This document shows positions 10,147-47,164 of a stretch of DNA of 64,000 nt, piece after piece; the stretch's first letter is position 1, and every line of letters begins with the position of its first letter. Source of the stretch: Paucibacter sp. B2R-40 (GTDB lineage: Bacteria; Pseudomonadota; Gammaproteobacteria; Burkholderiales; Burkholderiaceae_C); contig NZ_JAJIRP010000004.1 in assembly GCF_025717555.1 (NCBI RefSeq), positions 187,426 through 251,425 on the forward strand, written 5' to 3'. The translations under genes were made by a program, and so were the position numbers. The notes below the pieces were generated by a model. It ran no database searches. It saw only the letters and a program-made list of their open reading frames with translations, and was not told where the DNA came from.

Positions 10147-10410
10147 TTTTGGCGTTTGATCGACCCGACGGGCGTTGCCTCGCGTCAGCAAAGCAAAGAA
10201 TGCCTTGCAACCCCGGATTCTATCCGACGACACCAGCAATCGCAGCCGGCGAGCACCATTTAGCAAGTTGATCCGCCAGAATCCCCAGCTTATTGAAGCC
10301 GGCGGCAAATCATCGTCGGGTCAAAATAGTTCACCATGCGAAAAGACCCGCAACTCTGCTCAGCCATAAGCAGCGGCTTGCAGGCCCCCTCCTGCACTTT
10401 TCAGCGCCGA

Positions 10411-27434: not shown

Positions 27435-28433
27435 ATGAACCTCATTTCCACGACCAACGGCGAGAAGTTTGACGCCCGTGACGGAGAAACTCTGCTTGAT
27501 GCCGCGACGCGCGGCGGTGTAGCGCTTGGATACAGCTGCCGAACCGGGCGTTGCAGCAGTTGCAAGGGCTTGGTACGCAGCGGTTCCACAATAGCTGTTC
27601 ACGACGAGCTGGGATTGACCGCAGCCGAGCGCGATGCTGGCTGGATACTGACCTGCGTGCGGCATGCCAGCTCAAATGTCGAGCTCGACATTGAGAGCCT
27701 GGGGGATATTCAACTCTTCCCGGCCAAAACAACGCCTTGCCGCATTCACTCGCTGGAGCGCCTGTCCGCCGATGTCATCAAAGTCGTTCTGCGCCTGCCG
27801 CCCACTAGCGACTTTTGTTTTCACCCCGGTCAGTACATTGATGTGATCGGGGCAGATGGCTTGCGCCGAAGCTACTCGGTCGCCAATGCGCCGAACGCCG
27901 CCAAGCAGATCGAGTTGCATATTCGCGAAGTTGCAGGCGGTGCTATGAGTCGCTATTGGTTCGAGCAAGCCAAAGTGAACGACCTGCTCCGATTCAATGG
28001 TCCGCTGGGCACCTTCTTCCTGCGCGACACGGCGGGCAAGGATCTGGTTTTCCTTGCCACAGGAACAGGCATGGCGCCCGTCAAGGCCATGCTTGAGGGG
28101 CTGCGAAATAGTGCCGACGACGCCAACAAACCCCGCTCGGTCTCTGTGTACTGGGGTGGCCGCTCGCCGCAAGACTTTTATTGGGATCCCGCCTCGCTGG
28201 CCCCTGGCTTCGTCTACGTACCGGTACTGTCGCGTGCGGAGCCCGACTGGCCAGGCGCCCGAGGCCATGTTCAAGATGCCTTGCTTGCCAGTACGCCGGA
28301 CCTGACCCAAACTGTGGTCTACGCTTGCGGCTCTGACGCCATGATCCACTCAGCCCGCGAGCAGTTGATTGCAAACGGCCTGCCCGACAAATGCTTCCAT
28401 TCAGACGCCTTTGTCTGCTCGGCAAGCAACTGA
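27435..28433 (+). CDS. ddhD: CDP-6-deoxy-delta-3,4-glucoseen reductase
   Basis: The reductase (E3) partner of RfbH in 3,6-dideoxyhexose synthesis; it passes electrons from NADH through FAD and a [2Fe-2S] centre. The plant-type ferredoxin domain is N-terminal with Cys35, Cys40, Cys43 and Cys74. The FAD-binding RSYS is at 145-148, and the NAD-binding GTGMAPVKAM follows near 215. The 332-residue length and domain order match RfbI/AscD/DdhD. It leads the rfbF-rfbG-rfbH gene run with 17 bp to rfbF. Confidence 0.92.
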   Translation: MNLISTTNGEKFDARDGETLLDAATRGGVALGYSCRTGRCSSCKGLVRSGSTIAVHDELGLTAAERDAGWILTCVRHASSNVELDIESLGDIQLFPAKTTPCRIHSLERLSADVIKVVLRLPPTSDFCFHPGQYIDVIGADGLRRSYSVANAPNAAKQIELHIREVAGGAMSRYWFEQAKVNDLLRFNGPLGTFFLRDTAGKDLVFLATGTGMAPVKAMLEGLRNSADDANKPRSVSVYWGGRSPQDFYWDPASLAPGFVYVPVLSRAEPDWPGARGHVQDALLASTPDLTQTVVYACGSDAMIHSAREQLIANGLPDKCFHSDAFVCSASN

Positions 28434-28450
28434 AACTATAGGAATTCAAG

Positions 28451-29224
28451 ATGAAAGCCGTCATCCTGGCCGGAGGCCTTGGCACCCGCCTGAGCGAAGA
28501 AACCGCCGTGCGCCCCAAACCCATGGTGGAGATTGGCGGTAAGCCAATTCTGTGGCACATCCTCAAGATGTACGCCCATCACGGCGTCAATGACTTCGTG
28601 ATCTGCTGCGGCTACAAGGGCTATCTGATCAAGGAGTATTTCGCCAATTACTTCCTGCATACATCCGACGTCACCTTCGATATGCGAAATAACAGCATGG
28701 AGGTGCATCACAAGCGCGCGGAACCCTGGACGGTCACTCTTGTAGACACAGGTGACAGCTCGATGACCGGTGGTCGCTTGGGTCGCGTCGCCGAGTATGT
28801 CAAGGACGATGAGGCTTTTTGCTTCACCTACGGGGATGGCGTCAGCGACGTCGACATCGGCGCTACCATTGCTTTTCATCGCAGCCATGGCAAAGCAGCC
28901 ACCTTGACGGCGGCTTACCCACCGGGCCGGTTTGGCGCTTTGGATATTCAAGACCAGCAGGTCATGAGTTTCAAGGAAAAGCCAAAAGGCGATGGCGCCT
29001 TGGTCAATGGCGGCTTCTTTGTGCTTTCCCCCAAGGTGCTGTCGTACCTGAAGGGTGACGGCACCATCTGGGAGCAAGAACCCATGATGCAACTCGCCAC
29101 AGATGGTCAGTTGATGGCCTATCAGCACCATGGTTTCTGGCAGCCGATGGACACCTTGCATGACAAGCAGACGCTTGAGTCACTGTGGGCCAGCGGTGCA
29201 GCGCCCTGGAAAAAGTGGGGCTGA
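28451..29224 (+). CDS. rfbF: Glucose-1-phosphate cytidylyltransferase
   Basis: Makes CDP-glucose from CTP and glucose-1-phosphate, the first step toward CDP-3,6-dideoxyhexoses. The 257-residue protein has [11 protein letters not shown] near the N-terminus, [15 protein letters not shown], and the conserved TYGDGVSD, where the Asp binds the metal. A good match to the RfbF family over the full length. rfbG starts on the base immediately after its stop codon. Confidence 0.96.
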
Positions 29225-30307
29225 ATGAGTATGGCTATCAACCCAGACTTCTGGCGCGGCAAAAGAGTCTTGCTGACGGGTCACACCGGTTTTAAAGGCA
29301 GCTGGCTGAGCCTCTGGCTGCAATCGCTGGGCGCCGATTTGCATGGCCTAGCACTAGAGCCGCCCTCCTCCCCCAACCTCTTCACTGAGGCGCAGGTGGA
29401 GGCTGGCATGTCCAGCACCCTAGGCGATATCCGCGACTATGAGGCTGTGCTCGCCTGCGTGGCAGCAGTCAAGCCGGAAATCATTATTCACATGGCGGCG
29501 CAACCCCTGGTGCGTCTGTCATACAGCGAGCCGGTAGCCACCTACGCCACCAATGTGATGGGCACCGTCCATGTGCTGGAAGCTGCGCGCAGCGTCGGCG
29601 GCGTAAGCGCGATAGTCAACGTCACGACCGACAAATGCTATGAGAACCGCGAATGGGCCTGGGGCTATCGCGAGGATGAGCCCATGGGCGGGTTCGACCC
29701 CTACAGCAACAGCAAAGGCTGCGCCGAGTTGGTGACCTCTGCCTACCGCCGCTCGTTCTTCCAACACAGCGACATTGCTCTGGGGTCGGCACGAGCTGGC
29801 AATGTGATTGGCGGCGGCGACTGGGCGGCGGACCGTCTTGTGCCCGATATCCTGCGTGCTTTTGAGCAGGACAGGCCAGTTGTCATCCGCAACCCCCACG
29901 CCACTCGCCCCTGGCAGCATGTGATTGAGCCGCTGTCCGGCTACCTGCTGCTGGCGGAGCGCCTGTACAACGACGGCCAGGCCTATGCCGAAGGCTGGAA
30001 CTTTGGCCCACAGGACGACGATGCGCAGCCGGTGCAATGGATCGTGGAGCACTTGGTGCGCGAGTGGGGTCAAGGCGCCAGTTGGCAACTCGACGGCGGC
30101 GAACACCCGCACGAGGCCAACTACCTCAAACTAGACATCTCCAAGGCCAAGGCCCGACTCGGCTGGCGTCCGCGTTGGAACCTCGCCACAGCGCTTCATC
30201 AGATCACCAGCTGGCATCAGGCCTGGCTGGCCAAGCAAGACATCCGCCATCTGTGCCTGACGCAGATCCAGCAGTACACGACCGACCAGAAAGTACGACC
30301 AGCATGA
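29225..30307 (+). CDS. rfbG: CDP-glucose 4,6-dehydratase
   Basis: An NAD-dependent short-chain dehydrogenase-type enzyme converting CDP-glucose to CDP-4-keto-6-deoxyglucose. The 360-residue protein shows the cofactor loop GHTGFKGSW (from residue 19), the TTDKCYEN motif and the YSNSKGCAE catalytic Tyr/Lys. The stop overlaps the rfbH start as ATGA. All residues expected of the RfbG family appear present. Confidence 0.96.
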
Positions 30308-31650
30308 CCACCATCTCGCCGATTCAATTCACCCCGAAGTCCCCTGACGCCATCCGCCGCGAGATCGCCGCGCTGGTTCAACAATACGCCGACATTGCCT
30401 ACGCGCCTCGGCCCTTCGTACCCGGAGAAACCGCAGTGCCGGTCTCAGGCAAGGTCATCGGAGCCAAAGAATTGCAGCTGATGGTCGAAGCCTCGCTGGA
30501 CGGTTGGCTGACCACAGGTCGTTTTAACGCCGAGTTTGAGGAGCGTCTCGCCAAGTATCTGGGCGTAAAGCACCTGATCACGGTGAACTCCGGGTCCTCC
30601 GCCAATCTGGTGGCCTTCTCCACCCTCACCTCGCCGCGCCTGGGTGATCGGGCCATCCAACCGGGTGACGAAGTGATCGGCGTAGCAGCCGGCTTCCCCA
30701 CCACGGTGAACCCGATCCTGCAGTTCGGCGCCGTGCCGGTGTTTGTCGACGTGGACTTGGCTACGCACAATATCGACGCCAGCCTGATTGAAGCCGCGAT
30801 CACCCCAAAGACCAAGGCCATCATGCTGGCCCACTCGCTGGGCAACCCCTTCAACCTCGACGTCGTCACGGCGTTGTGCAAGAAGTACAAGCTGTGGCTG
30901 GTCGAAGACTGCTGCGACGCGCTCGGCGCGACCTACAAGGGTCGGCTGGTCGGCACTTTCGGCGACATTTCGACCCTGAGCTTCTACCCAGCGCACCACA
31001 TCACCATGGGCGAAGGCGGCGCAGTCTTTACCAATAGCAGCGAGCTGAAGCTGATCGCCGAGTCCTTCCGCGACTGGGGTCGCGATTGCTATTGCCCACC
31101 CGGCAAGGACAATACCTGCGACAAGCGCTTCTGCTGGAAGCTGGGTGAGTTGCCCGAAGGCTACGACCACAAATACACCTACAGCCACCTCGGCTACAAC
31201 CTGAAGATCAGCGATATGCAAGCCGCATGCGCGCTGGCTCAACTGGACCGTTTGGACGAGTTCATCGCCAAGCGCCGGGCCAACTTCGACTATCTGAGAG
31301 CGCGCCTGAAGTCTTGCGAGGAATTTCTGCACCTGCCAGAAGCGACACCCGACACCAACCCGTCATGGTTTGGCTTTCCGCTGATCGTGCGCGAAAGTTC
31401 AGGCATCAAGCGAGCCGATCTGATCAACTTCCTTGATCAGAACAAAATTGCCACCCGCCTGCTGTTCGCCGGCAACCTGACCAAGCAGCCCTACATGATC
31501 GGCCGCAACTTCCGAGTCAGCGGTGAGTTGACCAACACCGATGTGGTGATGAATCAAACTTTCTGGTTGGGTACATTCCCGGCATTGGGTGAGCCACAGT
31601 TGGACTACATCACTGACAAGCTCGAAGAATTCTTCGGCATCAATTTCTGA
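30304..31650 (+). CDS. rfbH: CDP-6-deoxy-4-keto-glucose-3-dehydrase (RfbH/DdhC)
   Basis: The PMP- and iron-sulfur-dependent enzyme (E1) that removes the 3-hydroxyl from CDP-4-keto-6-deoxyglucose. The fold is that of DegT aminotransferases, but the PLP lysine is replaced by His231 in [13 protein letters not shown], as in DdhC. The [2Fe-2S] ligand pattern C-X57-C-X1-C-X7-C is matched exactly by Cys204, Cys262, Cys264 and Cys272. The 448-residue length is normal. It overlaps rfbG by 4 bp, and its stop shares one base with the next ATG, so the transketolase is coupled to it. Confidence 0.96.
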
Positions 31651-32504
31651 TGGACACTCTCGCGACCCCTACCGCCGGCTCGGCCGTGGACCAAAGGTTC
31701 CAGGCGGCCCGCATGCGCCGTACCGTCCTGGAAATGGCGTTCGCCGGATCGACCGTTCACATCGGCTGCGCGTTCTCGATCATCGAGCTCGTGGCGGTGC
31801 TGTATCGGAACCATCTGCGCTATCCGGGCAACGACCCGCGGGCAGAGGGTCGCGACTATCTAGTCCTGAGCAAGGGACATGGCGTGATGGCACAGTATGC
31901 GTGCATGCGTGAACTCGAATGGCTGGATGACTCGCACATCAAGGGCTATTTCGCCGATGGCAGTCAGCTAAAGGGACTGTCCGACTCTCGCGTGCCGGGT
32001 CTCGAGGTCACCTCCGGCTCGCTGGGGCATGGCTTCTCCGTTGGCGTTGGCATCGCGATGGGGCTGCGGCGCAAAGGCGGTGACCAGAAGGTCTACGCCA
32101 TCGTCGGCGATGGCGAACTGAATGAAGGCCCGATCTGGGAGGGGGCGCTGGTAGCCGCCCATCACCGGATGGACAATCTGATGCTGATCGTCGACAAAAA
32201 CGGCTTCCAGGCCATGGGCACGACCGACGACGTACTGGCGCTCGGCGACCTCAGCGCCAAGTTCTCCAGCTTCGGCTTCGAAACGCTTGAGATAGACGGC
32301 CATGACGAAGCGGCAATCGACGAGGCGATCAACACCCTATGGCGCACTGGCGCGGGCAAGCCGAAGGCGCTGATCGCGCGAACGGTCAAGGGCAAGGGCG
32401 TTCCATTCATGGAAGCCGACAACCGCTGGCACTACACGCGACTGAACCCGCAGACTTTCGCCGAGGCCGTCAACGCGCTCGGTCTACCCGGAGCGACAAC
32501 GTGA
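31650..32504 (+). CDS. Transketolase, N-terminal (thiamine diphosphate-binding) subunit
   Basis: The pyrophosphate-binding half of a two-subunit transketolase, 284 residues. It shows the loops KGHG (75-78) and TSGSLGHG (121-128) and the ThDP/Mg motif GDGELNEG at 153-160 with Asn184 of VDKN. It lacks the pyrimidine-binding domain, which is encoded by the next gene. Split transketolases act on ketose donors and aldose acceptors. Its tight coupling to rfbH (1-bp overlap) suggests the acceptor here is a CDP-4-keto-sugar; that is inference. Confidence 0.9.
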   Translation: MDTLATPTAGSAVDQRFQAARMRRTVLEMAFAGSTVHIGCAFSIIELVAVLYRNHLRYPGNDPRAEGRDYLVLSKGHGVMAQYACMRELEWLDDSHIKGYFADGSQLKGLSDSRVPGLEVTSGSLGHGFSVGVGIAMGLRRKGGDQKVYAIVGDGELNEGPIWEGALVAAHHRMDNLMLIVDKNGFQAMGTTDDVLALGDLSAKFSSFGFETLEIDGHDEAAIDEAINTLWRTGAGKPKALIARTVKGKGVPFMEADNRWHYTRLNPQTFAEAVNALGLPGATT

Positions 32505-33415
32505 GAGACGCCTTTTCCAATGCGCTGGTTCGGCTGGCGCTGGCCGACCCGAAAGTGCTGCTGCTGACAGGCGACCACGGCTACGCGCTGTTCGACGAGT
32601 TCCGCAAGCGTTGCCCGGATCAATACATCAACGCAGGCATCGCGGAACAGAACATGGTCGGCATGGCTGCGGGTCTGGCGCGGGTCGGCTTCCGTCCGTT
32701 CGTTTACGGCCTGGCGGCTTTCGTGCCGGTCCGCACCGTTGAGCAGATCAAGCTCGACATCGCGCATGACGATCTGCCAGTGGTTTTGCTCGGCGACGGA
32801 GCAGGTTTCGTATACAGCCATCTTGGCACCAGCCATCAGTCGACTGAAGACATCGCATGCACTCGCGCGATCCCCGGCTTGCAAATCCTATCGCCAGCGG
32901 ATCGCTTCGAGATGACGGCTTGCATGGACTTCGCGTACGCAAACAAGGGACCCGTGTATATGCGCATGGGCAAATCGGACCGGGGCGACGTGCATAGCGG
33001 CCCGATCTCAGCATTAGCGTCCGGACGGCTGCTGACAGTGCGCAAAGGCCGAACCGATCGTCCCGGCCTGATTGCAACCGGCTCGATGGTGCGAACTGCC
33101 ATCGACATCGCGCAGGAACAGGATCTCTCGGTCTGGAGCGCCCCCACGCTGAAGCCTATCGCTGCAGAAGATATCCGCGCGGCGGCCCGCACTTCGAACG
33201 GCCTCATCACCATGGAAGAACATTCTGTGCTGGGCGGCTTGGGCGCTGCCATCACCGAGATCACCAGCGAACTCCAGCCGACTCGCGTGCTCCGCATCGG
33301 CGTGCCAGACCGCTTTTCACAACACTGCGGCACCCACGACTACCTGCTACGCGAACATGGCATGGATACGGAAACAGTTCGTCGGAGGATTTGTGAGTAC
33401 ATTGCCTCGCTCTGA
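32501..33415 (+). CDS. Transketolase, C-terminal (pyrimidine-binding) subunit
   Basis: The partner subunit of the preceding gene, 304 residues, with the Pyr domain containing the ThDP-activating Glu49 in GIAEQNMVG and the C-terminal transketolase domain (TGSMVRTAIDIA to the end). The start is GTG at 32501, overlapping the previous stop as GTGA. Cytoplasmic. The pair is complete and intact. Its end overlaps the following SDR gene by 23 bp. Confidence 0.9.
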   Translation: MRDAFSNALVRLALADPKVLLLTGDHGYALFDEFRKRCPDQYINAGIAEQNMVGMAAGLARVGFRPFVYGLAAFVPVRTVEQIKLDIAHDDLPVVLLGDGAGFVYSHLGTSHQSTEDIACTRAIPGLQILSPADRFEMTACMDFAYANKGPVYMRMGKSDRGDVHSGPISALASGRLLTVRKGRTDRPGLIATGSMVRTAIDIAQEQDLSVWSAPTLKPIAAEDIRAAARTSNGLITMEEHSVLGGLGAAITEITSELQPTRVLRIGVPDRFSQHCGTHDYLLREHGMDTETVRRRICEYIASL

Positions 33416-34388
33416 AGCGCTCGACCTGCGCGGTCGGTGGATTTTCATCACGGGCGGAACCGGCTTCATCGGCCGATCCTTGCTCGACTACTTTGATGAA
33501 TCAGCAACCAAAAACGGGCCCAACTTCCAAGTGACGGTGCTTAGCCGCAACCCCGCGAGCTTTCTCCACCGACACCCATGGTACGAATCAAAACCTTGGT
33601 TGAACTTCGTACGCGGTGAGTTGAACGACTTGCAGCTCAACAGCGGTAAGTTCACCGACCTGATCCACGCAGCAGCCGACACGCATCGACGTGGTGACCC
33701 TTTGGAATGGCTAGATCAACTCGTCAACGGAACCCGCCAAGTACTCGATTTCGCCCGGTATCACGGCGTCAAACGTTTCTTGCTTCTGAGCTCCGGCGCA
33801 GCATACGGAACACAGCCAGCAGACGTCGCAGCACTAGAAGAAGATATGCCGTTGGCGCCACTGACAAACAACACGCGCGCTGTCTACGGGAACGGCAAAC
33901 GAACGGCTGAACATCTTTGCGCGCTCTATTCGGTGCAGTACGAAATCGAATGTGTGATCGCGCGTTGTTTCGCTGTAATCAGCAAGCACGTACCTTTAGA
34001 TGGGCCTTACGCGGCAGGAAATTTTCTACGTGACGCAATGCAAGGTTCGAATATTTGCGTCCATGGCAATGGTCGTGCAATTAGATCGTACATAGATGGA
34101 CGGGATGCTGCACATTGGCTCACCACACTTCTGAGCATCGGGAAAGCCGGTGAAATCTATAACGTAGGGTCAGAGAAACCCATCAGCATTCTCCAGCTGG
34201 CGGAAATAGTCCGAGCCCGCACTTCATGCAATGGCGCCGTGACATCAAACCCAGGCGAAAAAGACATCACTCAATCTATATACCTGCCATCTACTGCAAA
34301 AGCCCAAGCACTGGGCTTGTCCATCGAAACAACGCTAGAAGACTCAATCGATACAGCAATAGAAGGAATTAAAGCAATTCAAAGATAA
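33393..34388 (+). CDS. NAD-dependent sugar epimerase/reductase (SDR family)
   Basis: An extended short-chain dehydrogenase of 331 residues with GGTGFIG (21-27) and the catalytic Tyr165/Lys169 in YGNGK, preceded by LLSSGAAYG. The reading frame is open upstream, but a GGAGG sequence before the GTG at 33393 supports that start. It resembles sugar-nucleotide 4-ketoreductases such as the abequose/paratose synthases only in general fold; I cannot assign one. By position it may reduce the product of the RfbFGH-transketolase steps. The 3' half is more AT-rich than the genes before it, suggesting a mosaic boundary. Confidence 0.8.
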   Translation: MSTLPRSEALDLRGRWIFITGGTGFIGRSLLDYFDESATKNGPNFQVTVLSRNPASFLHRHPWYESKPWLNFVRGELNDLQLNSGKFTDLIHAAADTHRRGDPLEWLDQLVNGTRQVLDFARYHGVKRFLLLSSGAAYGTQPADVAALEEDMPLAPLTNNTRAVYGNGKRTAEHLCALYSVQYEIECVIARCFAVISKHVPLDGPYAAGNFLRDAMQGSNICVHGNGRAIRSYIDGRDAAHWLTTLLSIGKAGEIYNVGSEKPISILQLAEIVRARTSCNGAVTSNPGEKDITQSIYLPSTAKAQALGLSIETTLEDSIDTAIEGIKAIQR

Positions 34389-34509
34389 AAAAGCTTTTTT
34401 CATCAGGCAAAACAACAACATTTCAGGTTCCTTGAAATTTAGACAAGCAAGTTAGCCTAGTATTCTTTAATTATGCGACCCGAACAGCAAAAACAATAAG
34501 CAAAAAATC

Positions 34510-35775
34510 ATGCGCGCACAAATAATATTTAATGTATCAGACAAAATAATAAAACTGGGCGCGCTATTCACAACCTCTATCTTTGCCGCTCGACTTTTGG
34601 ATCGCGATCAGTATGGGATATTTGTCTATGTCAATGTTATTTTATCAATAGCAATTGCATTCTCAACATCTGGAATAGACACAATTATTGGAAAAAGAAT
34701 TTCGCAAGACAAAAAAATAGATTTCCACTTCATCAAAAATGCCACGATTATTAAAATAATAATCGCCATTTTGGCCAGCACAGTAACTTATTTATACATA
34801 AAAGATAGATATTCAGAAACCTCATACGCGATTGCATTAGCCGCCGCAACAACAGTAGTTTTAGCAGCCATCGGGTATTCAGAAGTAGTCTTGACTGCGC
34901 TGCAAAAAAATAAGTTAATGCTGCTTTTGACTATTACCATAATAGTTCCATTTGGCGCAATAAAATTACTTGCACTGTCGCACTACGAAGTCCCAAGCGT
35001 CAAATACATAATTGACTCGATTGAATATTTTTCGTTGGGAATATCAGCAATGTTCTTTTTAAGGAAATTGATATTTCGCAGTAATTCCAAAGAAAAAACG
35101 AAATTTTATTTTCTGGTACTTCTCAAAGAATGCCTCCCCTTATGGCTGAATGGCATTATCTTGATTACCTACAGTCGCTACGACCAACTTTTTGTAGGAG
35201 CGATCGGCACGCAAGGCGAAATGGCTGACTATGCCATAGCGACACAACTGAATATGATAGCCTTGATTTTACCAACCTCAGTCTTGACCGTCGCTTTCCC
35301 TAAAATGATGGCACTTAAGGATAGCGACATCTATGCATATGAAAATTTATTAGTAAAATTATACAGGTCACTCGCTCTTTATGGATTTATCTGGGTAGCA
35401 ATAGTTTATCTGGTTGGTGGAATAGCAGTAACGACTCTTTATGGTCAAGCCTATTCCGGATCAATAAATCATCTAAAAATACTGTCCGTAGGCGTAATAT
35501 TCACCATACTTGGCCAGATATCCGGACAATGGACAGTAATAGAGGGCAAGTATTGGATTTCCGTAAAACGAAGCATCATCGGAATATTTTTCATGGCGAC
35601 AGCAAACTATATTTTCAACGATGCAAGGAATATAACAAAAGTCGCAACAATTACCGCAATTAATTTATTCATTGTTAATATTCTTCTATATTTCATTTTA
35701 AATGACACCAAGAAGGCAAAGGAGTTGATGCTTCGTGCAATCTTTGTCAACAAGAAATTGGGATATGAAAAATAA
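34510..35775 (+). CDS. wzx: Polysaccharide flippase, Wzx type
   Basis: A 421-residue polytopic membrane protein with about 12 hydrophobic segments and the MATE/Wzx-like pattern RDQYGIFVYVNVILS near the N-terminus, typical of oligosaccharide flippases that move undecaprenyl-linked repeat units across the inner membrane. Coding is markedly AT-rich (AAA/ATA/TTA-rich codons) compared with the genes to its left, indicating transfer. It follows 121 bp of AT-rich non-coding DNA. The next gene overlaps by 11 bp. Confidence 0.82.
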   Translation: MRAQIIFNVSDKIIKLGALFTTSIFAARLLDRDQYGIFVYVNVILSIAIAFSTSGIDTIIGKRISQDKKIDFHFIKNATIIKIIIAILASTVTYLYIKDRYSETSYAIALAAATTVVLAAIGYSEVVLTALQKNKLMLLLTITIIVPFGAIKLLALSHYEVPSVKYIIDSIEYFSLGISAMFFLRKLIFRSNSKEKTKFYFLVLLKECLPLWLNGIILITYSRYDQLFVGAIGTQGEMADYAIATQLNMIALILPTSVLTVAFPKMMALKDSDIYAYENLLVKLYRSLALYGFIWVAIVYLVGGIAVTTLYGQAYSGSINHLKILSVGVIFTILGQISGQWTVIEGKYWISVKRSIIGIFFMATANYIFNDARNITKVATITAINLFIVNILLYFILNDTKKAKELMLRAIFVNKKLGYEK

Positions 35776-36637
35776 ATTCACATTAAATACCAGTGCAGAT
35801 TCGAAATATTTCTCAAGAGCACTCAACCTAATTGGCTCGGTGCGATATCAAAGCAGGGTACCACCTAATATCCGAGTATGGGATTTAGGCCTGACCCGAC
35901 TTCAAAGACTAATTTTTCGCACCCTGCTAGTTGAAGTATCTGAAATTCAAAAATTTGCACCATGGTGGAATATTTGCTACAGCTGGAAAATGTATGTCTA
36001 TCATGCTGCCCCGGAGCAGATATTTCTTCATCTAGATGCAGGAAATACTATTCTAGGCGATATCGCTTCTGTTTATGAAACGATAGAGTATGACAATTAC
36101 TTTCTAATAGATCAAGGGCAAACGATACGAACTATTAGTCCCGATGATCTTGTTGAAAAATTCAATCCGAAGGCCGACCTAACTAAATTAGCCTTCGCAG
36201 CTGGCAATATCGGATTAAATAAGGGTGACAGTCGCGTGGCTTCCGCAATAAGCGAGGCTTATATAGCTGCAGCAGAGGGATATTGCCTAGGATTTTCTGA
36301 AGTCGAAAAATACAAATATAATCAAGGTTTTTCAAAAGTATTGAGGAAATGCGACGTATTTCGGCATGATCAAACAGTTTTCAATCTAATTTTTACTAAA
36401 TATTATCCAAATTCAAAACTGCATGATCACCAACAATACGCAGCAGTAAAAAATAGACCCGGAACATTGATTTTTAATCAAAGAACGTACAGTTATCGAT
36501 ACATATTAAATGTTTGCGACAAGAAAATTTCCTTACTGATACTTGGGTACTGCCTAATTACTGACACATTTCAACGAGCAACCAGAAAATTAAAGTGGAA
36601 ATTGAGAAATAAAGATGCACCTACACATCTTAAATGA
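35765..36637 (+). CDS. Uncharacterised protein, possible glycosyltransferase
   Basis: A 290-residue soluble-looking protein, AT-rich, without a clear family assignment. The segment HLDAGNTIL contains a D-x-G core that could be the nucleotide-sugar metal site of a GT-A fold, and RHDQTVFNLIF resembles a conserved helix of GT8-like/DUF1647-type transferases. The start at ATG 35765 overlaps the flippase end by 11 bp; a GTG at 35735 is less likely. Placed between wzx and a GT2 gene, it most likely acts on the repeat unit. Function not proven. Confidence 0.55.
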   Translation: MKNKFTLNTSADSKYFSRALNLIGSVRYQSRVPPNIRVWDLGLTRLQRLIFRTLLVEVSEIQKFAPWWNICYSWKMYVYHAAPEQIFLHLDAGNTILGDIASVYETIEYDNYFLIDQGQTIRTISPDDLVEKFNPKADLTKLAFAAGNIGLNKGDSRVASAISEAYIAAAEGYCLGFSEVEKYKYNQGFSKVLRKCDVFRHDQTVFNLIFTKYYPNSKLHDHQQYAAVKNRPGTLIFNQRTYSYRYILNVCDKKISLLILGYCLITDTFQRATRKLKWKLRNKDAPTHLK

Positions 36638-36651
36638 GATGCATTTAATCA

Positions 36652-37449
36652 ATGACTAATCGCACCATGACAGAAACAGAACATTCAACTATACCGAATG
36701 GGGTGACTTTCTCGGTCGTTTCTCACGGGCAAAAAAAATTCATTGAAACTCTTCTCGGTGAAATCTCTGGTTTGATAAATATTGATTTCGAAGTAATATT
36801 AACCATCAATATAGAGGAAGCCACCACACTAGATTTATCAAATTTTAATTTTCCCATCATACTAATAAAAAATGAAATCCCGAAAGGGTTTGGAGAAAAT
36901 CACAACTCAGCTTTCTTGATTTCAAAATTCTCTAATTTTATAGTTATTAACCCCGATATACTTCTACCCAACAAATTTCTTTTTTCTGCACTGGATAAAT
37001 ATAAATTCAGATCTGACGTCGGTATTTGGGGGCCAAGAGTTGTTACGCCGGATGGCCAACTAGAGGACAGCGTACGCCTTTACCCGAGTTTCAAGAGAAT
37101 CTTAAAGCGAGTGCTATTGAATGCGAGATTCGGTGATTATCCACCAGTTGATGGCACGATCGAATGTGACTGGGTCGCTGGGATGTTTATGGTTTTCACG
37201 CGTGCTGCCTTCAAAAAAGTAAAAGGTTTTGATCAAAACTATTTTATGTACTTGGAAGATGCGGATATTTGCAGAAGACTGCACGCAGAAAATTACCGCG
37301 TCGTCTACGACAGCAGTTTCGAGGTCGTTCATTATGCGCAGCGAGCATCTAGAAAAAATATCAGGCATGTAGTTTGGCACCTCTCGAGTCTTTTTCATTT
37401 TCTCGTGATGAGCAAATTCAAAGAACCAAAATCAAAAATAAGTGATTAG
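36652..37449 (+). CDS. Glycosyltransferase family 2, WbbL-like
   Basis: A 265-residue cytoplasmic GT-A transferase. It begins with TFSVVSHGQKKFIETLL and has the nucleotide-sugar site NPDILLP, then DWVAGMFMVFTRAAFKKV and FDQNYFMYLEDADIC, typical of rhamnosyltransferase-like GT2 enzymes. The sugar transferred is unknown. It is followed by the probable polymerase after 34 bp. AT-rich like its neighbours. Confidence 0.82.
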   Translation: MTNRTMTETEHSTIPNGVTFSVVSHGQKKFIETLLGEISGLINIDFEVILTINIEEATTLDLSNFNFPIILIKNEIPKGFGENHNSAFLISKFSNFIVINPDILLPNKFLFSALDKYKFRSDVGIWGPRVVTPDGQLEDSVRLYPSFKRILKRVLLNARFGDYPPVDGTIECDWVAGMFMVFTRAAFKKVKGFDQNYFMYLEDADICRRLHAENYRVVYDSSFEVVHYAQRASRKNIRHVVWHLSSLFHFLVMSKFKEPKSKISD

Positions 37450-37483
37450 TCGTGAATTCAAAAAATTCAGTGTCAACTAAAAT

Positions 37484-38395
37484 ATGCGCAAGAAAAATAG
37501 ATACGTATTGCTGAACATCAGCTCCATATTGGAGTACGTTTTCTTTGCGATAGCTATTATTTCGTTCTCAATAATCGGCGCAAAAAATATTGTAACCTTA
37601 GATGATAATGCTGACCTTACTCGCTATTTATCATCTTCAAGTGACCTGATCGAACAATTCTCTGAACCGCTATCTTCGATAATATTCGATTACATATACA
37701 GTATTTCAAATGGCTTAGAGTTGCCTTGGTTGCTGCCCGCACTGGTTGCCTTTGCAGTCTATTCAACCATATTTTTTTCAAAGCCCAAATCAACTACATT
37801 AAAGTTCTTTTGGTACGTCTCACTTGTGCCAACGCTTTCTCTCATAAATGTCCGTAATGGGCTTATTTTCTTTTTCGTGCCATTTCTACCCGCGCTGGCC
37901 GTCATCTGGACCGGTTTATTTTTGCACTGGAGCTATTTTCTTCTTTTAGCCAGTCGTTTCTATAAATCCATAATCTTCTGGATTATTTTTGGTGCTTCCA
38001 TATTAATATTCTCACTAGCGGTGTTCGACCTAAGTTCGATCGCAAACAAGATTCTTCACTATGTCGGGGACGACAATGATCCAGATTATGGAGTTGGACT
38101 TTTCATATATTTGTCCTTGTTGTGGTTTGGACTAAGGTCAGCGTACATATCAACTGGTGTCAGTCCGTCAGTGCTAGATAGTATTTTTGGACTCGCATTG
38201 TTATTGGCCTCAATAGGACTTCCAGTTCCGTCAGGTCGATTGGCATATTTCACGATAATTCTTTCACTCATTGAGCTAAGAGGGAAAGAATTGAGCAAAT
38301 TTTCAGGGCTATCTCGCGCAGCATTGTTGCTTTCCGCCATATTTCAAGTGTATTTCTTTGGTCGTATGACAAATATTGTTTCTTGGAACATTTAG
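37484..38395 (+). CDS. Polytopic membrane protein, probable Wzy/EpsG-like polymerase
   Basis: A 303-residue integral membrane protein with about eight hydrophobic segments. The pattern DLTRY near residue 47, NVRNGLIFFFVPFLPAL and LHWSYF resembles EpsG-type polymerases that join repeat units in the periplasm (R-N-G-L and H-W-S motifs). No other polymerase candidate is seen in the left half, supporting the assignment, but Wzy proteins diverge strongly and the call is tentative. Confidence 0.6.
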   Translation: MRKKNRYVLLNISSILEYVFFAIAIISFSIIGAKNIVTLDDNADLTRYLSSSSDLIEQFSEPLSSIIFDYIYSISNGLELPWLLPALVAFAVYSTIFFSKPKSTTLKFFWYVSLVPTLSLINVRNGLIFFFVPFLPALAVIWTGLFLHWSYFLLLASRFYKSIIFWIIFGASILIFSLAVFDLSSIANKILHYVGDDNDPDYGVGLFIYLSLLWFGLRSAYISTGVSPSVLDSIFGLALLLASIGLPVPSGRLAYFTIILSLIELRGKELSKFSGLSRAALLLSAIFQVYFFGRMTNIVSWNI

Positions 38396-38468
38396 CACTC
38401 GTAAAAACCCAAGTGCTCAATAATTTAATGCGCAATTAACTTATGCAACCAGCCAAATTAAATATCAA

Positions 38469-39479
38469 ATGATCTGCCGACTTTCAAAAAACAATTTTGA
38501 TTTACTAAGATTTATTTTTGCATCAATCGTATTAATTGTTCATACTTACCAACTTACCGGATTAACTGAACTTAGCCTGATCACGAAATATTTATCTTCA
38601 GAAATTGCAGTTAGATCATTTTTTATAGTCAGCGGTTTCTTGATTCTGATGAGTTATGAACGCTCGAAGTCTTTAGTGGAATATTTCAGAAAAAGATTTT
38701 TAAGAATATATCCCGCCTATGCGTTCACAATACTAATTGTCGCCATAGGATTTTTTGGAGTCAGCTCAAAAAATGCCCCCGAATATTTTGCCGCCAGCTG
38801 GGTATCCTACGTAGTATCCAACCTATTTTTTCTCAACTTCCTTTGCCCGTCGCTTCCGGGCGTATTCGAGTCCAACGCTATTTCAGCTGTTAATGGCGCC
38901 TTATGGACCCTGAAGATTGAGGTTGCTTTTTATATCATAGTTCCAATCATTGCCTATACTTGCCGGAGAAGTAGACCGTGGCTAATGCTCGCTATAATAT
39001 ACTTTGCTTCCTACTATTTCCCTAAATTACTAAATACAGGCAAACTTAGTGGCACCCCCTTAGGAGGTAGTTTAAGCCACCAAATTCCTGCTCAACTTTG
39101 TTTTTTTGTAGCCGGGTCATTTTTTTACTACTACATTGAGTTATTTGAAAAATATTTGTTTTATTTTCTGACATTTGCTATCGTAGTTTTCTTACTGCGC
39201 CCGTTCGCCAGCGTAGGCCCGTTGGAGCCATTCGCATTAGCGACAATTGTCGTTTTCTTAGGTTTGTACCTTTATATTGGTAATTTCGGAAAATATGGTG
39301 ACTTTTCGTACGGAATATATATCGTACATTTTCCTATAATTCAGCTTTTTATTCATTTCAAATTATTCGAAAAATCTCCTTGGTTTTTCCTAATTTCTGT
39401 CTTCAGCTTTTCATTGATTGCTTCTATTTTTCTTTGGAATTTTATAGAAAGCAAATTTCTAAATAGAAAGAGGTCATAG
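38469..39479 (+). CDS. Acyltransferase family 3 (OafA/WecH-like)
   Basis: A 336-residue membrane acyltransferase with about ten hydrophobic segments, of the family that O-acetylates surface sugars. The N-terminal NNFDLLRFIFASIVLIVHTYQL carries the conserved catalytic His (in IVHTYQ). A C-terminal ESKFLNRKRS tail is typical. It is the last gene of the left half; its stop at 39477-39479 abuts the IS21 remnant, so the 3' flank was lost or replaced. Confidence 0.82.
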   Translation: MICRLSKNNFDLLRFIFASIVLIVHTYQLTGLTELSLITKYLSSEIAVRSFFIVSGFLILMSYERSKSLVEYFRKRFLRIYPAYAFTILIVAIGFFGVSSKNAPEYFAASWVSYVVSNLFFLNFLCPSLPGVFESNAISAVNGALWTLKIEVAFYIIVPIIAYTCRRSRPWLMLAIIYFASYYFPKLLNTGKLSGTPLGGSLSHQIPAQLCFFVAGSFFYYYIELFEKYLFYFLTFAIVVFLLRPFASVGPLEPFALATIVVFLGLYLYIGNFGKYGDFSYGIYIVHFPIIQLFIHFKLFEKSPWFFLISVFSFSLIASIFLWNFIESKFLNRKRS

Positions 39480-39484
39480 CGACC

Positions 39485-39757
39485 AACGCCGTAGTCCTTG
39501 GAAACTTCGCTAAGTTGCATATTCAAAAGATAATTTCGGCTAGGGTGATGGCGAATGCTAGGACTTCTAAGAGTATCAAGTACCGTCCAATAGATTCCAA
39601 CTGTCAGCATCCACTCAGCGTCGATCATTCGGTGTAGCCGCGCCTCGACTGAGTGGCTTGGCGGGACTCTTCGGCCAGCAATTCCGACCAAGCCGTCGCC
39701 ATGCCGTACAGATGCCGGGATTTGAGCTGCGCGACGCGGTCAATGGACTTGCTGGCG
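39485..39757 (-). pseudogene. istB fragment (ATP-binding helper of IS21)
   Basis: Residues AQLKSRHLYGMATAWSELL and, in another frame, LHRMIDAEW resemble the N-terminus of IstB. At least one frameshift separates these pieces near 39630, and the P-loop region and the rest are missing. The left limit is approximate. Confidence 0.55.
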
Positions 39758-41236
39758 CCCAAGCAGATGGTCGTGGCGACTGCAGTCGGCCATGGGCTTG
39801 ACTTGCAGGCGCAACTATTCAGGCAGGCTCATGCGCTCGGGCCGCTCGGGCGCCGTCAAACGCCGCAACTCGTTCATGACCACGGCAGCCATGACCACGC
39901 CGCATTCCAGTGTCAGCTCGCAGGCCACTTGCAGCGTATCCAGCCCCACCAGGCGAGCGGCCAGCAGGAGCTCAACAAGGGCGCGGTCGCCTCTGAGCTG
40001 CTTCAAGACGCGGTCGCGCACTGCCTTGACGGCCTTGGGAAGTTCCCACTATACAAACGGCGCCCCGTTGCGAAGTGCGCCAAGCTTCTTCTCCAGCACC
40101 GGTAGGTAGTGCCAGGGATCGAAGATCAACTGATCGCGCCCAAACCGGCGGCCATGCTGGGCGATGACTTGGCCGTCGACGACGAGCCGGATTTGATCCG
40201 CAAACACCCGCACCGACACCTCCTTGCGCGCGAAGTCTGCCGGCACGCTGTAGCGATTGCGATCCACGCGCACCAAGCAGGTACTCGACACGCGCATCAT
40301 CTGTTCGACATAGCCTGCACAGTCGCTCGCCACCGGCCGCAGTCTGGCCCGATCCTGCTCAAAGCAATGCGCAATCGTGCGGTCGGCCTCGGCGGGGTGG
40401 CTTCGAGCCCCCAACTCCTGGCATCGCTTGCTCAGCCATTCATTGAGCAACTCAAAGCGCTTGAAGTGCGCCATCGGCGTGAACAGCCATTCGCGCACAT
40501 TGCCCACCTGATTCTCAACCTGCCCCTTCTTCCAGCCAGACTCCGGGATGCAAGCCACGGGTTGGAAAAAATAGTGATTCGCCAGTGCCATGAAGCGCCG
40601 ATTGAAGCGGCACTCCTTGCCAACCAGAATGGCGTCCACGACCGTCTTCAGGTTGTCGTAGATGAGCCCGCTGCGGCACGCCGCCGAAGTAGGCGAAGGC
40701 CCGGTTATGCGCATCCAGCATCATCTCCTGCGTCTCGCACGGATAGGCCACTACAAACATCCGCGGCTATAGGCCAAACGGAAGTTCGCGACTTTGACGG
40801 TTTGCACGACGCCTTCAATGTCCACTTGCTCCTGGCTCCAGTCAAATTGGCAGGCGTCTCCCGGCACAAACGCCAGCGGCACGAATGCACTCTGGGTGCT
40901 TGGCGGCAACTGAGCGGCCTTCCATTGCTTCACGCAACGCTGTACGCTGTCATTGGTCCCTCGATAGCCTTCACTCTGCAGGCCGTCAAACAATCGCTTG
41001 GCCGTGCGCCGCTGAGTTTTGGGTAAGTGGCGCTCGGTTTGCAGCCAGTTCTCCAGTATGGCTTGAAAGCAGCCCAGCTTGGGCGCGGGCTGATGCTGGA
41101 GGACATAACCCAGCGCTTCAATGGTTTGTAGATGCATGCGCACCGTGGGCCGAGACAATTACAGATCCCGCGCGATGGAGCTAATGCTCTCCTTGCTGAC
41201 CAAATGCTGACGCCGGATCTCGGCAATAGCTTCCAT
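39740..41236 (-). pseudogene. istA transposase pseudogene of IS21 family
   Basis: An IstA-type transposase that would run from ATG 41236 to a TGA at 39740-39742. It has in-frame stops at 41159-41161 (TAA, after 25 residues), 40049-40051 (TAG) and 39815-39817 (TAG), and frameshifts near 40755 and 40680. Recognisable stretches are RRQHLVSKESISSIARDL, ETQEMMLDAHNRAFAYFG (the integrase core region) and GQVENQVGNVREWLFTP. The conserved end DCSRHDHLL precedes the stop. Not functional. Confidence 0.85.
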
Positions 41237-41351
41237 GTTTAACACCCCAGATTCCTCGGCGAAAACGCCGGATGGTTGCACACCCCAGGGTGAAAACTAT
41301 TGGACGCTGTTTACCCCGGGTAATCTGGAAAGTTTTGCACGCTGTTTCACA

Positions 41352-41918
41352 TCTTGCGACTTCCAGCAGTCGGCTGTCGGTCGGGTGGGCAATGGGCTTC
41401 TCCTGCACATTCGACTCGACAATCACGCGTTCCAACTCGACGGGTTTGACGGCCTTCATCGCCACAGCCGCCTCGATGGTAGTCTTGAGCAACTGCTCCA
41501 CGCCGGCTTCGCCGAGCACGCGCCGGACGCGGCCGATCTGCGTGGCATCACAGGGCAGCTTGCTCTGGTAATATTCCATGCCGCCGAAGACTTGGCAGAC
41601 CACGTTCTCGCTCCAGCGCTCGACCAGGGATTCGTCACTCTCGTTGAAGGCGTGTTTGAGGTACAGCAGCGCGACCATCAGGCGGATCGGCAAGCGCGGC
41701 CGGCCGACTCGACTCACACCGCCTGCGGCCACCACCAACGTGGGCCCAAACACATCGGCGTCATCGCGCGACCTTCCCAGTCGGGCCTTGCGCGCAAGCA
41801 GCGGCACCAATGAGGTTTCAATCTGAGACCAGGGCAGGCGCCGAGCTAACACCGCCAGCGGGTGCTGGGGATCCACCATCCCGTCCAACCGTGCGCGGAA
41901 GAAGTCGTCGGTCGCCAT
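41352..41918 (-). pseudogene. IS5-family transposase, truncated
   Basis: The N-terminal half of an IS5-type DDE transposase from ATG 41918: LDGMVDPQHPLAVLARRL, GRPRLPIRLMVALLYLKHAF and RVIVESNVQEKPIAHPTDSR are typical. It continues cleanly to RLLEVAR, where IS21 sequence takes over; the C-terminal catalytic part is gone. Not functional. Confidence 0.8.
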
Positions 41919-45295: not shown

Positions 45296-47164
45296 TCAAG
45301 GCCGCGCATGAAACGACGCCCCCAATAACTCCCTCAGCGCACTTCGAGCCGACTCATCATCGGCTAGCCTAAGTGAACCCGCACCGTTGTTCAGCCAATC
45401 AATCACGTCCGCACTCTGCCGCCTGTCATCCAAGCGCGCCAGCGCCAAGCCGGAGCAACTCGTCGGCAGCGTGGTGTCGCTGTCGGCCAGCAACTCCTCA
45501 AATAGCTTCTCGCCCGGCCGCAGGCCGCTGAATTCGATCTGGATTTCGTCCTGACCGCGACCGGATAGGCGAATCATGTCCCGCGCCAAATCTACAATCC
45601 GCACCGGCTCACCCATGTCCAGCACTAACACCTGACCGCTTTCGCCGATGGCTGCTGCTTGCACGACCAGGCGCGCGGCCTCGGGGATGGTCATGAAGTA
45701 ACGGGTAATGTCAGGGTGGGTGACGGTGACCGGGCCGCCCTTGGCGATCTGCTGCTTGAACTTGGGGATCACGCTGCCGCTGCTGCCCAATACATTGCCA
45801 AAACGTACAGCCATGAACTTGGTGGCATGCCCTTGGCATGCCATATGACTGAGCACCAGCTCGGCCGCACGTTTGCTCGCCCCCATCACATTGGTCGGGT
45901 TGACCGCCTTGTCGGTGCTGATCAAAACGAAGCGCTCCACGCCGCTTTCGGCCGCGGCCAGCGCCGCGTGGTAGGTACCCAGGGTATTGTTGCGCAAGCA
46001 GACCCAGGCGTTGTCCACTTCCATCAAGGGCACATGCTTGTAGGCGGCCGCGTGAAAAACGATTTGTGGCTTGTGTTTTCCGAATGTGTAGCGCAAGTGT
46101 TCCAAGTCCTTCACATCGCCGACAAGCCGAAGCAAAGGGATGTGCGGAAACTTCTCCGTCAACTCTTGCTCGATCAGATACAGCGCCACTTCGCTCAGTT
46201 CATACAGCACCAGCAAGCGTGGACCATAACGCGCTACCTGTCTGCACAATTCCGAGCCTATCGAGCCGCCGGCGCCGGTGATCAGCACGACCTTGCCGTT
46301 GATGCATTCGCTGATGCCGCCCTCGTCCAGTTGCACCGGCGCACGACCCAACAAGTCCTCGGGCTCGATATCGCGCAGCTGATCCACCTTGCGCCCGGTC
46401 TGCAATTCCTCCAGATTGGGTACGGTCAACACATGCAGACCAGTCTGCCCGGCCAGGTCCAGGGCGCGGCGACGCTGCTCAGTCGCGGCCGACGGCATCG
46501 CCACGATCAGGTGCGTGATGCCGTGCAGCGGCGCAAAGCGCGTAACCTCCTCCAAACGCCCCAGCACCGGAATCCCGGCGACACGCGAATCCTGCTTGGC
46601 CGGGTCATCGTCGAGCCAGCCCACCACCACCCAGCCCTGGTGCTGAATGCCCGCCACCGCCAAACGCCCGGCCTGCCCGGCGCCCAGTACGAGTGCCCGG
46701 TGCGATTCGACCGAACTGCCGCTGATGCGACCCCGCATATGCTCGTACAGCATGCGGTAGCCCAGGCGCATCATGGCCAGTGCGATCAGACAAAACAGTG
46801 GATGCAAGGCCAGTACAGCCCGCGGCACGCCGCTCAAATGAGCCATCAGCACCAGGGTGGCGCCCAACGTGCCGGCGATGGCGCAGGCCACTGCTAGGCG
46901 CTTGACTTCGCCGAAGCCGCTGAAGCGCCACATGCCCTTGGGCACACGCAGCATCCACAGCACGAGCACATACAAGCCCACCAAGGCGAGCATGACCCAA
47001 GCGTCATAGTCCGGGCGCGCCGAAATCCAGCGCTCGAAACCGAGTCGAAACAGATAGGTTGCCTGCCAGGCGAGTGCAACCACCGCCGCGTCAAGCAACA
47101 AGGAGAGCGCCTCGCGGTAGGGGCGAATGCGGGTCAGAAATCCGTCGAGAGATAGCCAGAACAT
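45296..47164 (-). CDS. PglF/WbpM-type UDP-sugar 4,6-dehydratase
   Basis: A 622-residue membrane-anchored nucleotide-sugar dehydratase. Four N-terminal membrane segments (about 20-40, 56-72, 92-110, 116-135) precede a first Rossmann-like domain, and a second contains GAGGSIGSE at 297-305 and STDKAVNPTNVMGASKRAA. Members convert UDP-GlcNAc to the UDP-4-keto-6-deoxy sugar (PglF, WbpM, CapD). Gene order with a PglC-like transferase and an aminotransferase fits a bacillosamine-like or QuiNAc/FucNAc route; which cannot be decided. Confidence 0.88.
   Translation of the reverse strand: MFWLSLDGFLTRIRPYREALSLLLDAAVVALAWQATYLFRLGFERWISARPDYDAWVMLALVGLYVLVLWMLRVPKGMWRFSGFGEVKRLAVACAIAGTLGATLVLMAHLSGVPRAVLALHPLFCLIALAMMRLGYRMLYEHMRGRISGSSVESHRALVLGAGQAGRLAVAGIQHQGWVVVGWLDDDPAKQDSRVAGIPVLGRLEEVTRFAPLHGITHLIVAMPSAATEQRRRALDLAGQTGLHVLTVPNLEELQTGRKVDQLRDIEPEDLLGRAPVQLDEGGISECINGKVVLITGAGGSIGSELCRQVARYGPRLLVLYELSEVALYLIEQELTEKFPHIPLLRLVGDVKDLEHLRYTFGKHKPQIVFHAAAYKHVPLMEVDNAWVCLRNNTLGTYHAALAAAESGVERFVLISTDKAVNPTNVMGASKRAAELVLSHMACQGHATKFMAVRFGNVLGSSGSVIPKFKQQIAKGGPVTVTHPDITRYFMTIPEAARLVVQAAAIGESGQVLVLDMGEPVRIVDLARDMIRLSGRGQDEIQIEFSGLRPGEKLFEELLADSDTTLPTSCSGLALARLDDRRQSADVIDWLNNGAGSLRLADDESARSALRELLGASFHARP

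Follow-up and report, generated by a model that had tools for sequence, protein, structure and literature searches.

A split transketolase in a CDP-4-keto-3,6-dideoxyglucose gene cluster of Paucibacter sp. B2R-40 as a candidate for C4 branching of a polysaccharide sugar

Background

The closest described relative of the locus considered here is the yersiniose pathway of Yersinia pseudotuberculosis, in whose cluster the genes for the acceptor CDP-4-keto-3,6-dideoxyglucose are accompanied by a thiamine diphosphate (ThDP) enzyme, YerE (YerE-like enzymes include ErwE and JanthE), and by YerF. The same acceptor genes and a ThDP enzyme were found together in a stretch of 64,000 nucleotides from Paucibacter sp. 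B2R-40 (NCBI RefSeq assembly GCF_025717555.1, contig NZ_JAJIRP010000004.1, positions 187,426 to 251,425), hereafter the window, in whose coordinates positions are given unless another locus (L number) is named. The carboligase of the window is a transketolase (TK) encoded by two genes, TKA and TKB, whereas YerE is a one-gene decarboxylase resembling acetohydroxyacid synthase (AHAS), and the short-chain dehydrogenase/reductase (SDR) of the window belongs to another family; seven TK clusters from elsewhere share their SDR family with two AHAS-like clusters. From gene context and active-site residues, it appears likely that the TK pair carries out C4 branching of the CDP-sugar.

Split TKs of the miharamycin and amipurimycin clusters are likewise proposed to add a hydroxyacetyl unit to a keto sugar (PMC12247030). 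In that review, split TKs appear as untested proposals for two antibiotics only, with 13 further putative sequences, all from Streptomycetes and none tested in vitro, and YerE-like enzymes are assigned to sugars of cell structures such as lipopolysaccharide, TKs to specialized natural products. The genes described here, compared with the miharamycin and amipurimycin TKs by description, differ from them in being tied to a CDP-sugar, in lying in polysaccharide-type clusters, and in occurring in several phyla. Because the review confines split TKs to antibiotic proposals and Streptomycetes, split TKs that have many relatives and sit in polysaccharide-type clusters, in the branch for a CDP-sugar, are new relative to it. 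A search of open PubMed Central by titles and the starts of abstracts returned no TK described in a CDP-dideoxysugar cluster; subscription journals lie mostly outside this search, which makes it weak evidence of absence. Two-protein C4 branching of a sugar is also described, in antibiotics, for AviB1/AviB2 and Pau11/Pau12 (PMC4753412). The many further split-TK candidates reported below come with a defined acceptor that would be made by four flanking genes, which makes the question directly testable, and biochemical proof would provide the evidence that PMC12247030 finds missing.

Genes of the cassette

The genes from ddhD through SDR2 form one tight run on the plus strand (27435-34388). The gene ddhD (27435-28433) encodes a ferredoxin-FAD-NAD reductase with Fer2, FAD_binding_6, and NAD_binding_1 domains, the likely electron donor for RfbH; it sits 17 bp upstream of rfbF, outside the interval 28451-34388 of the first-pass annotation, and has a relative of 57% identity at the same place in locus L063. 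It is followed by rfbF (28451-29224; glucose-1-phosphate cytidylyltransferase, TIGR02623, 474.6 bits against a cut-off of 300.25), rfbG (29225-30307; CDP-glucose 4,6-dehydratase, TIGR02622, 508.3 bits against 278.45), and rfbH (30304-31650; CDP-4-keto-6-deoxyglucose 3-dehydrase (E1), NF011936, 742.6 bits against 423). All three Rfb proteins thus exceed their curated family cut-offs and belong to the CDP-4-keto-3,6-dideoxyglucose pathway. Open reading frames (ORFs), domains, and cut-offs agree with the first-pass annotation, which had called the four genes intact. RfbH carries His231 (in SFYPAHH) at the position of the pyridoxal phosphate-binding lysine together with the cysteine cluster C204-X57-C262-X1-C264-X7-C272, just as that annotation had described, and its residues 14-448 align with the solved CDP-4-keto-6-deoxyglucose 3-dehydrases 3bcx and 3bb8.

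Downstream of rfbH lie TKA (31650-32504; ThDP-binding half of the split TK, Transketolase_N 118 bits), TKB (32501-33415; GTG start; pyrimidine-binding and C-terminal half, Transket_pyr 98 bits, Transketolase_C 54.6 bits), and SDR2 (33393-34388; GTG start; extended SDR of the Epimerase family, 1.6e-31, with GGTGFIG and YGNGK motifs). The gene borders are those given earlier: rfbF and rfbG abut, and the overlaps are 4 bp (rfbG/rfbH), 1 bp (rfbH/TKA), 4 bp (TKA/TKB), and 23 bp (TKB/SDR2). With all three TK domains, the ThDP motif GDG..N, and the catalytic Glu present, the pair belongs to the split TKs; the NCBIfam TK equivalog cut-offs, which are set for whole-length TKs, are reached by neither half. 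The best PDB matches are 6yak (N-terminal chain of a split TK) for TKA and 6yaj for TKB, both from Carboxydothermus hydrogenoformans, whose split TK is the closest solved sequence for both halves. The single-chain TPP_enzyme_N/M/C architecture of a YerE-like AHAS is absent from the pair, and two YerE-like queries gave no match in the 64-kb window, in line with the earlier statement that the cluster holds no YerE.

Recurrence of the link between split transketolases and rfb genes

Among 398 sampled genomes of the phylum, relatives of TKA (E 1e-45) were found in 88 genomes and rfbG (E 1e-80) in 94, and both in 40 against about 21 expected; these counts are lower bounds, as at most six (TKA) or five (rfbG) candidates were scored per genome. 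Nine TKA-rfbG pairs lay within 10 kb, eight of them within 5 kb, against 0.25 expected among the 39 both-holding genomes that remain when the window's own is excluded. The corresponding Poisson P (8e-12) assumes independent genomes and is too small, since the nine pairs fall in only five family codes. The excess of TKA-rfbG proximity over chance is not in doubt.

For a scan across named genomes, the best 80 of at least 587 TKA relatives were picked regardless of their neighbours. Both halves were present in 76, and 11 of the 76 had rfbF, rfbG, or rfbH within 10 kb, namely Rhodobacterales LSUCC0387, Variovorax PCZ-1, Burkholderia OK233, Janthinobacterium CG3, Paenibacillus chibensis, an actinobacterial metagenome-assembled genome (MAG), two Omnitrophota, and one genome each of Bacteroidales, Lachnospiraceae, and Campylobacteraceae. 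This number is a lower bound because many contigs end near the TK, and the linked fraction does not carry over to split TKs in general, as the query alignment contained seven rfb-linked sequences. The survey suggested in the first-pass annotation, widened from rfbH to rfbF and rfbG, shows the link recurring in several bacterial groups. Searching with the DNA of rfbH-TKA-TKB yielded 52 records, of which four were inspected: a plasmid of Methylovirgula sp. HY1 is annotated as rfbF-rfbG-oxidoreductase-rfbH-transketolase-transketolase C-terminal, and the records from Qipengyuania, Sphingomonas, and Azospirillum hold rfbFGH and no TK in the stretch shown. Among 392 genomes of family f58 (taken as enterobacterial), no TKA relative was found at 1e-60, a cut-off at which clade II (see below) would be missed, and none of 355 plasmid records with a TKA relative exceeded 60% identity.

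A tree of 120 joined TKA-TKB pairs was calculated with FastTree. It included 26 rfb-linked loci, 11 from the genome scan and 15 (the window included) from hand-picked stretches, most of them with the link in view. The window falls in clade I (nine rows, SH-like support 100), of which seven are linked. The two others are Microcystis and Polaromonas contigs from genomes that carry rfbG-rfbH elsewhere; in the Polaromonas MAG, the run rfbF-rfbG-rfbH-SDR2 reaches the end of one contig and TKA starts another, so the break is probably only an assembly artefact. Clade II (20 rows, support 99) has 14 linked rows, and the five remaining linked loci occupy three smaller parts of the tree (L064, L112, L159; L086; L109). 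Mapped onto the tree, the link label changes 11 times (at least 10 times when judged by the starred branches), and links were therefore gained or lost several times.

In eight loci (L066, L073, L074, L104, L107, L109, L161, L174), a TK pair lies near rfbF and rfbG with no rfbH in the stretch read; these TKs would act on CDP-4-keto-6-deoxyglucose, with the 3-OH retained.

Active site of the transketolase halves

Residues are given in Escherichia coli TK numbering. In ordinary TKs, D469 contacts the 2-OH of the aldose acceptor, H461 and R520 contact the phosphate, and His100 is a ligand of the donor C1-OH. The window pair retains H26, H66, H261, E411, H473, and R358 along with the ThDP motif, and carries the substitutions His100 to Leu, His461 to Gly, Asp469 to Leu, and Arg520 to Lys, so that the residue set of an ordinary sugar-phosphate TK is not there; the C. 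hydrogenoformans enzyme, by contrast, keeps both H461 and D469.

Residues were surveyed in the 120 of 124 loci with both halves (four had no TKB match). H461 and D469 were both lost in 72 loci, among them all 26 rfb-linked ones, while not one of the 48 pairs keeping both (38) or one (10) was linked. Restricted to the genome scan, the comparison gives 11 linked among 31 pairs lacking both residues and 0 among 45 keeping one or both (Fisher P 1.5e-5), a correlation that partly tracks the tree. Having lost H461 and D469, the linked pairs look like enzymes that no longer accept an aldose phosphate. It is accordingly hardly credible that the window pair is an ordinary pentose-phosphate TK located here by chance: the intact ThDP-binding and catalytic residues would suit such an enzyme, but a canonical TK (694-aa frame) is encoded elsewhere in the same 5.6-Mb genome, and split TKs keeping both acceptor residues are linked to rfb genes in 0 of 38 cases. 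On the canonical gene and the lost acceptor residues, this identity was rejected. A pair of the E1/alpha-KADH2 type, as in AviB1/AviB2, was likewise discarded, with TKA scoring 28 bits to E1_dh and 118 bits to Transketolase_N.

Position 100 separates the two clades, with Leu in 9/9 rows of clade I and His in 20/20 rows of clade II. Given this replacement in all nine rows, clade I TKs may use another donor than those of clade II.

SDRs beside transketolases and AHAS-like enzymes

For comparison, 20 rfbG stretches without a TK close by (L182-L201) were taken from the phylum search. In L183 and L186, an AHAS-like ThDP enzyme adjoins a 311-aa SDR, and these two SDRs are close relatives (322 bits); weaker AHAS-like matches lie further off in L196 and L200. 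The label YerE-type used here rests on domains and place, and YerF-type on similarity to the SDRs of L183 and L186, not on the true YerE and YerF sequences. A YerF-type SDR adjoins the TK pair in seven loci (L060, L061, L063, L065, L080, L081, L174), with 51-63% identity to the SDRs of L183 and L186 (35% for L081) and 296-354 bits for the SDRs of L060 and L063. As the same SDR family stands next to AHAS-like and TK-type enzymes, the TK would therefore occupy the place of YerE. No YerF-type SDR match was obtained in the plasmid search at 1e-30.

Against the YerF-type SDRs of L183 and L186, SDR2 of the window scores only 34-40 bits and thus belongs to a different SDR family; no NCBIfam match above cut-off was found for it. 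Its relatives stand beside the TK in L066, L082, L083, L088, L159, L160, and L211, and weakly in L109. With cut-offs of 150 bits (YerF-type) and 100 bits (SDR2) within 5 kb, seven of the 26 linked loci have a YerF-type SDR, eight an SDR2, 11 neither, and none both. That reduction of the branch by YerF is established, as the first-pass annotation had it, is overstated; this role was proposed, and the ketoreduction step of yersiniose was uncharacterized as of 2016 according to PMC4753412.

SDR2 could instead reduce C4 directly to give an abequose- or paratose-like sugar, with the TK acting elsewhere. We regard this as very unlikely, even though SDR2 is an ordinary extended SDR and also occurs in the TK-free stretch L194: it is unlike the SDRs 3' of rfbH in L184, L187, L189, and L195 (21-31 bits), stretches in which no ThDP gene was seen; that those SDRs are C4 reductases is a guess.

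L194 was also considered as a YerE cluster and rejected: its ORF of 613 aa encodes a B12/radical SAM protein, and that of 318 aa codes for a glycosyltransferase. L182 (5293-13560) holds rfbFGH, an acetaldehyde dehydrogenase, and a 4-hydroxy-2-oxovalerate aldolase (both above cut-offs) with SDR2- and YerF-type SDRs; this cluster may provide a longer keto-acid donor for an erwiniose-like sugar, and no YerE-like match was found before the contig end.

A related cluster in a luciferase-bearing genus

One of the clade II loci, L211, comes from genus g451, which is taken as Photorhabdus on a search that found full-length LuxE (637-661 bits) in four sampled genomes of the genus, one of them (L208) with a luciferase-family neighbour; the L211 genome itself is placed there by its genus code. 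rfbH was found in one of 12 g451 genomes. The gene order in L211 is four rml-like genes (one scanned), ddhD, rfbF, rfbG, rfbH, SDR2, TKA, TKB, and an AHAS-like fragment, and its TK retains His100. The fragment, shortly 3' of TKB (L211 13677-14060), is 116 aa long, covers the final portion of a TPP_enzyme_C domain, and is likely a remnant of an AHAS-like carboligase that was replaced by the neighbouring TK. The O-polysaccharide of Photorhabdus temperata XlNach is reported to contain 3,6-dideoxy-4-C-[(S)-1,2-dihydroxyethyl]-D-xylo-hexose; a search of open PubMed Central for this species and the dihydroxyethyl group gave one paper, on another subject.

Proposed pathway and alternatives

In the pathway proposed for the window, RfbF would form CDP-glucose from CTP and glucose-1-phosphate, RfbG would convert it to the 4-keto-6-deoxy sugar, and RfbH with DdhD would yield CDP-4-keto-3,6-dideoxyglucose, chemistry that is family knowledge. 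TKA and TKB would form one ThDP enzyme, as suggested by the two halves, their gene overlap, and the solved split TK. Its two-carbon unit would come from a donor, most likely as the ketol unit of a sugar phosphate, and, judging from context and active site, would be joined to the ketone at C4 of the CDP-sugar, with the enzyme standing in for YerE. In the weakest step, the SDR would reduce the new branch ketone to give a 3,6-dideoxy-4-C-(1,2-dihydroxyethyl)-hexose, and the C4-branched 3,6-dideoxyhexose would end up in a surface polysaccharide. This sequence of events (acceptor by RfbF/G/H/DdhD, C4 branching by the TK, reduction by the SDR) is, in our view, the best explanation overall and on balance probable; the complete statement with the hydroxylated branch is favoured only slightly. 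Of the earlier claim that the TK branches the sugar, the action at C4 of CDP-4-keto-3,6-dideoxyglucose is supported by the recurrence in two clades and three smaller groups, by the partnership with the SDR type of AHAS-like clusters, and by the lost acceptor residues. The hydroxylated branch is less certain given the Leu at position 100, and the SDR is only a candidate branch reductase given its family, which is not the YerF-type one, and its presence in TK-free clusters.

Several observations weigh against this pathway. The Leu of the window clade makes a glycolaldehyde-type donor less certain, and the changed H461 and R520, the phosphate ligands of ordinary TKs, may point to a donor other than a sugar phosphate. 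With pyruvate or another 2-oxo acid as donor, the pair would add an acetyl group at the same C4, the product would be yersiniose, and the TK would be a non-orthologous YerE. YerF-type SDRs accompany both kinds of enzyme, and clade I has lost the ligand of the donor C1-OH, both of which would fit; so would the two-subunit enzymes AviB1/AviB2 and Pau11/Pau12, which in PMC4753412 are said to attach a C4 acetyl, with pyruvate mentioned as donor. His100 is, however, kept throughout clade II, the g451 TK included. The Avi and Pau enzymes are, moreover, of the E1/alpha-KADH2 type, whereas TKA and TKB fall in transketolase models, as the scores of TKA given above show. We consider this pyruvate-type reading unlikely.

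The active site also does not appear specific for CDP-sugars, as 46 of the 72 pairs without H461 and D469 are not rfb-linked, some of them standing beside a DegT aminotransferase (L078, L079) or a TIGR01181-type dehydratase (L068). These pairs would suit an explanation in which the TK acts in the synthesis of a different sugar of this polysaccharide, such as a ketose or higher-carbon sugar, and the link to rfbH reflects a shared polysaccharide cluster only. Such a coincidence seems improbable to us: the TK genes of the window overlap the rfbH run, the orders rfbH-TKA-TKB or rfbH-SDR-TKA-TKB are repeated across bacterial groups, and a YerF-type SDR adjoins the TK in seven clusters. A simple exchange of YerE for a TK is further complicated by the SDR2 genes in the TK-free stretches L182, L186, L194, and L200 and by L109, where an AHAS-like gene (30% identity to a YerE-type query) lies just 5' of TKA, so that TK and AHAS-like enzymes are not always exclusive. 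The two AHAS-like enzymes, those of L183 and of L186, share only 29% identity. Finally, the L211 genome is not tied to strain XlNach.

If C4 branching by the TK pair holds, hydroxylated C4-branched sugars of bacterial polysaccharides would be explained, and one type of carboligase would have replaced another within the same pathway. A broader proposal, on which we are evenly divided, is that the split TKs without aldose-acceptor residues in several phyla are ketone-accepting carboligases acting on nucleoside diphosphate (NDP)-4-keto sugars. Their acceptor would be the 3,6-dideoxy sugar where RfbH is present, CDP-4-keto-6-deoxyglucose where it is not, and perhaps other 4,6-dehydratase products; they would have replaced YerE in more than one lineage and would make hydroxylated C4-branched sugars of O-antigens or exopolysaccharides, including the dihydroxyethyl sugar reported for Photorhabdus.

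Other neighbourhoods of split transketolases

In L068, a dehydratase-like SDR (10256-11254; TIGR01181, 204.7 bits, under the cut-off of 365.1) lies directly 5' of TKA, and rfbG-like SDRs of 21-24% identity occupy the same place relative to the TK in L164-L167; a use of these TKs on other NDP-4-keto sugars is possible. The DegT aminotransferase of L078 and L079 adjoins a TK pair with the same residue losses. A LuxE-like gene lies 2.4 kb from a split TK in G471 contig 6 (263901-268122; L213), in a stretch without rfbF, rfbG, or rfbH, which represents another cluster type joining a split TK with an acyl-activating enzyme.

Surroundings of the cassette in the window

The cassette is followed on the plus strand by a Wzx-like flippase gene (34510-35775; Polysacc_synt), the first gene of a low-GC repeat-unit region. 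Among the five plus-strand genes scanned downstream to 39479, two of which had no Pfam match, no further nucleotide-sugar enzyme was found. GC content is about 0.58-0.62 across the sugar cassette, drops from about 0.58 to 0.40 at 34 kb, and lies at 0.35-0.40 across the genes for the flippase, glycosyltransferase, and acyltransferase (34000-39500); given this drop, the cassette and the downstream low-GC genes are probably of different origin. Transposase domains (Mu-transpos_C_2 and DUF772) occur in two ORFs (40049-41918) that divide the cluster of the cassette from a second, minus-strand polysaccharide region, which contains a WbpM-like dehydratase (45296-47164).

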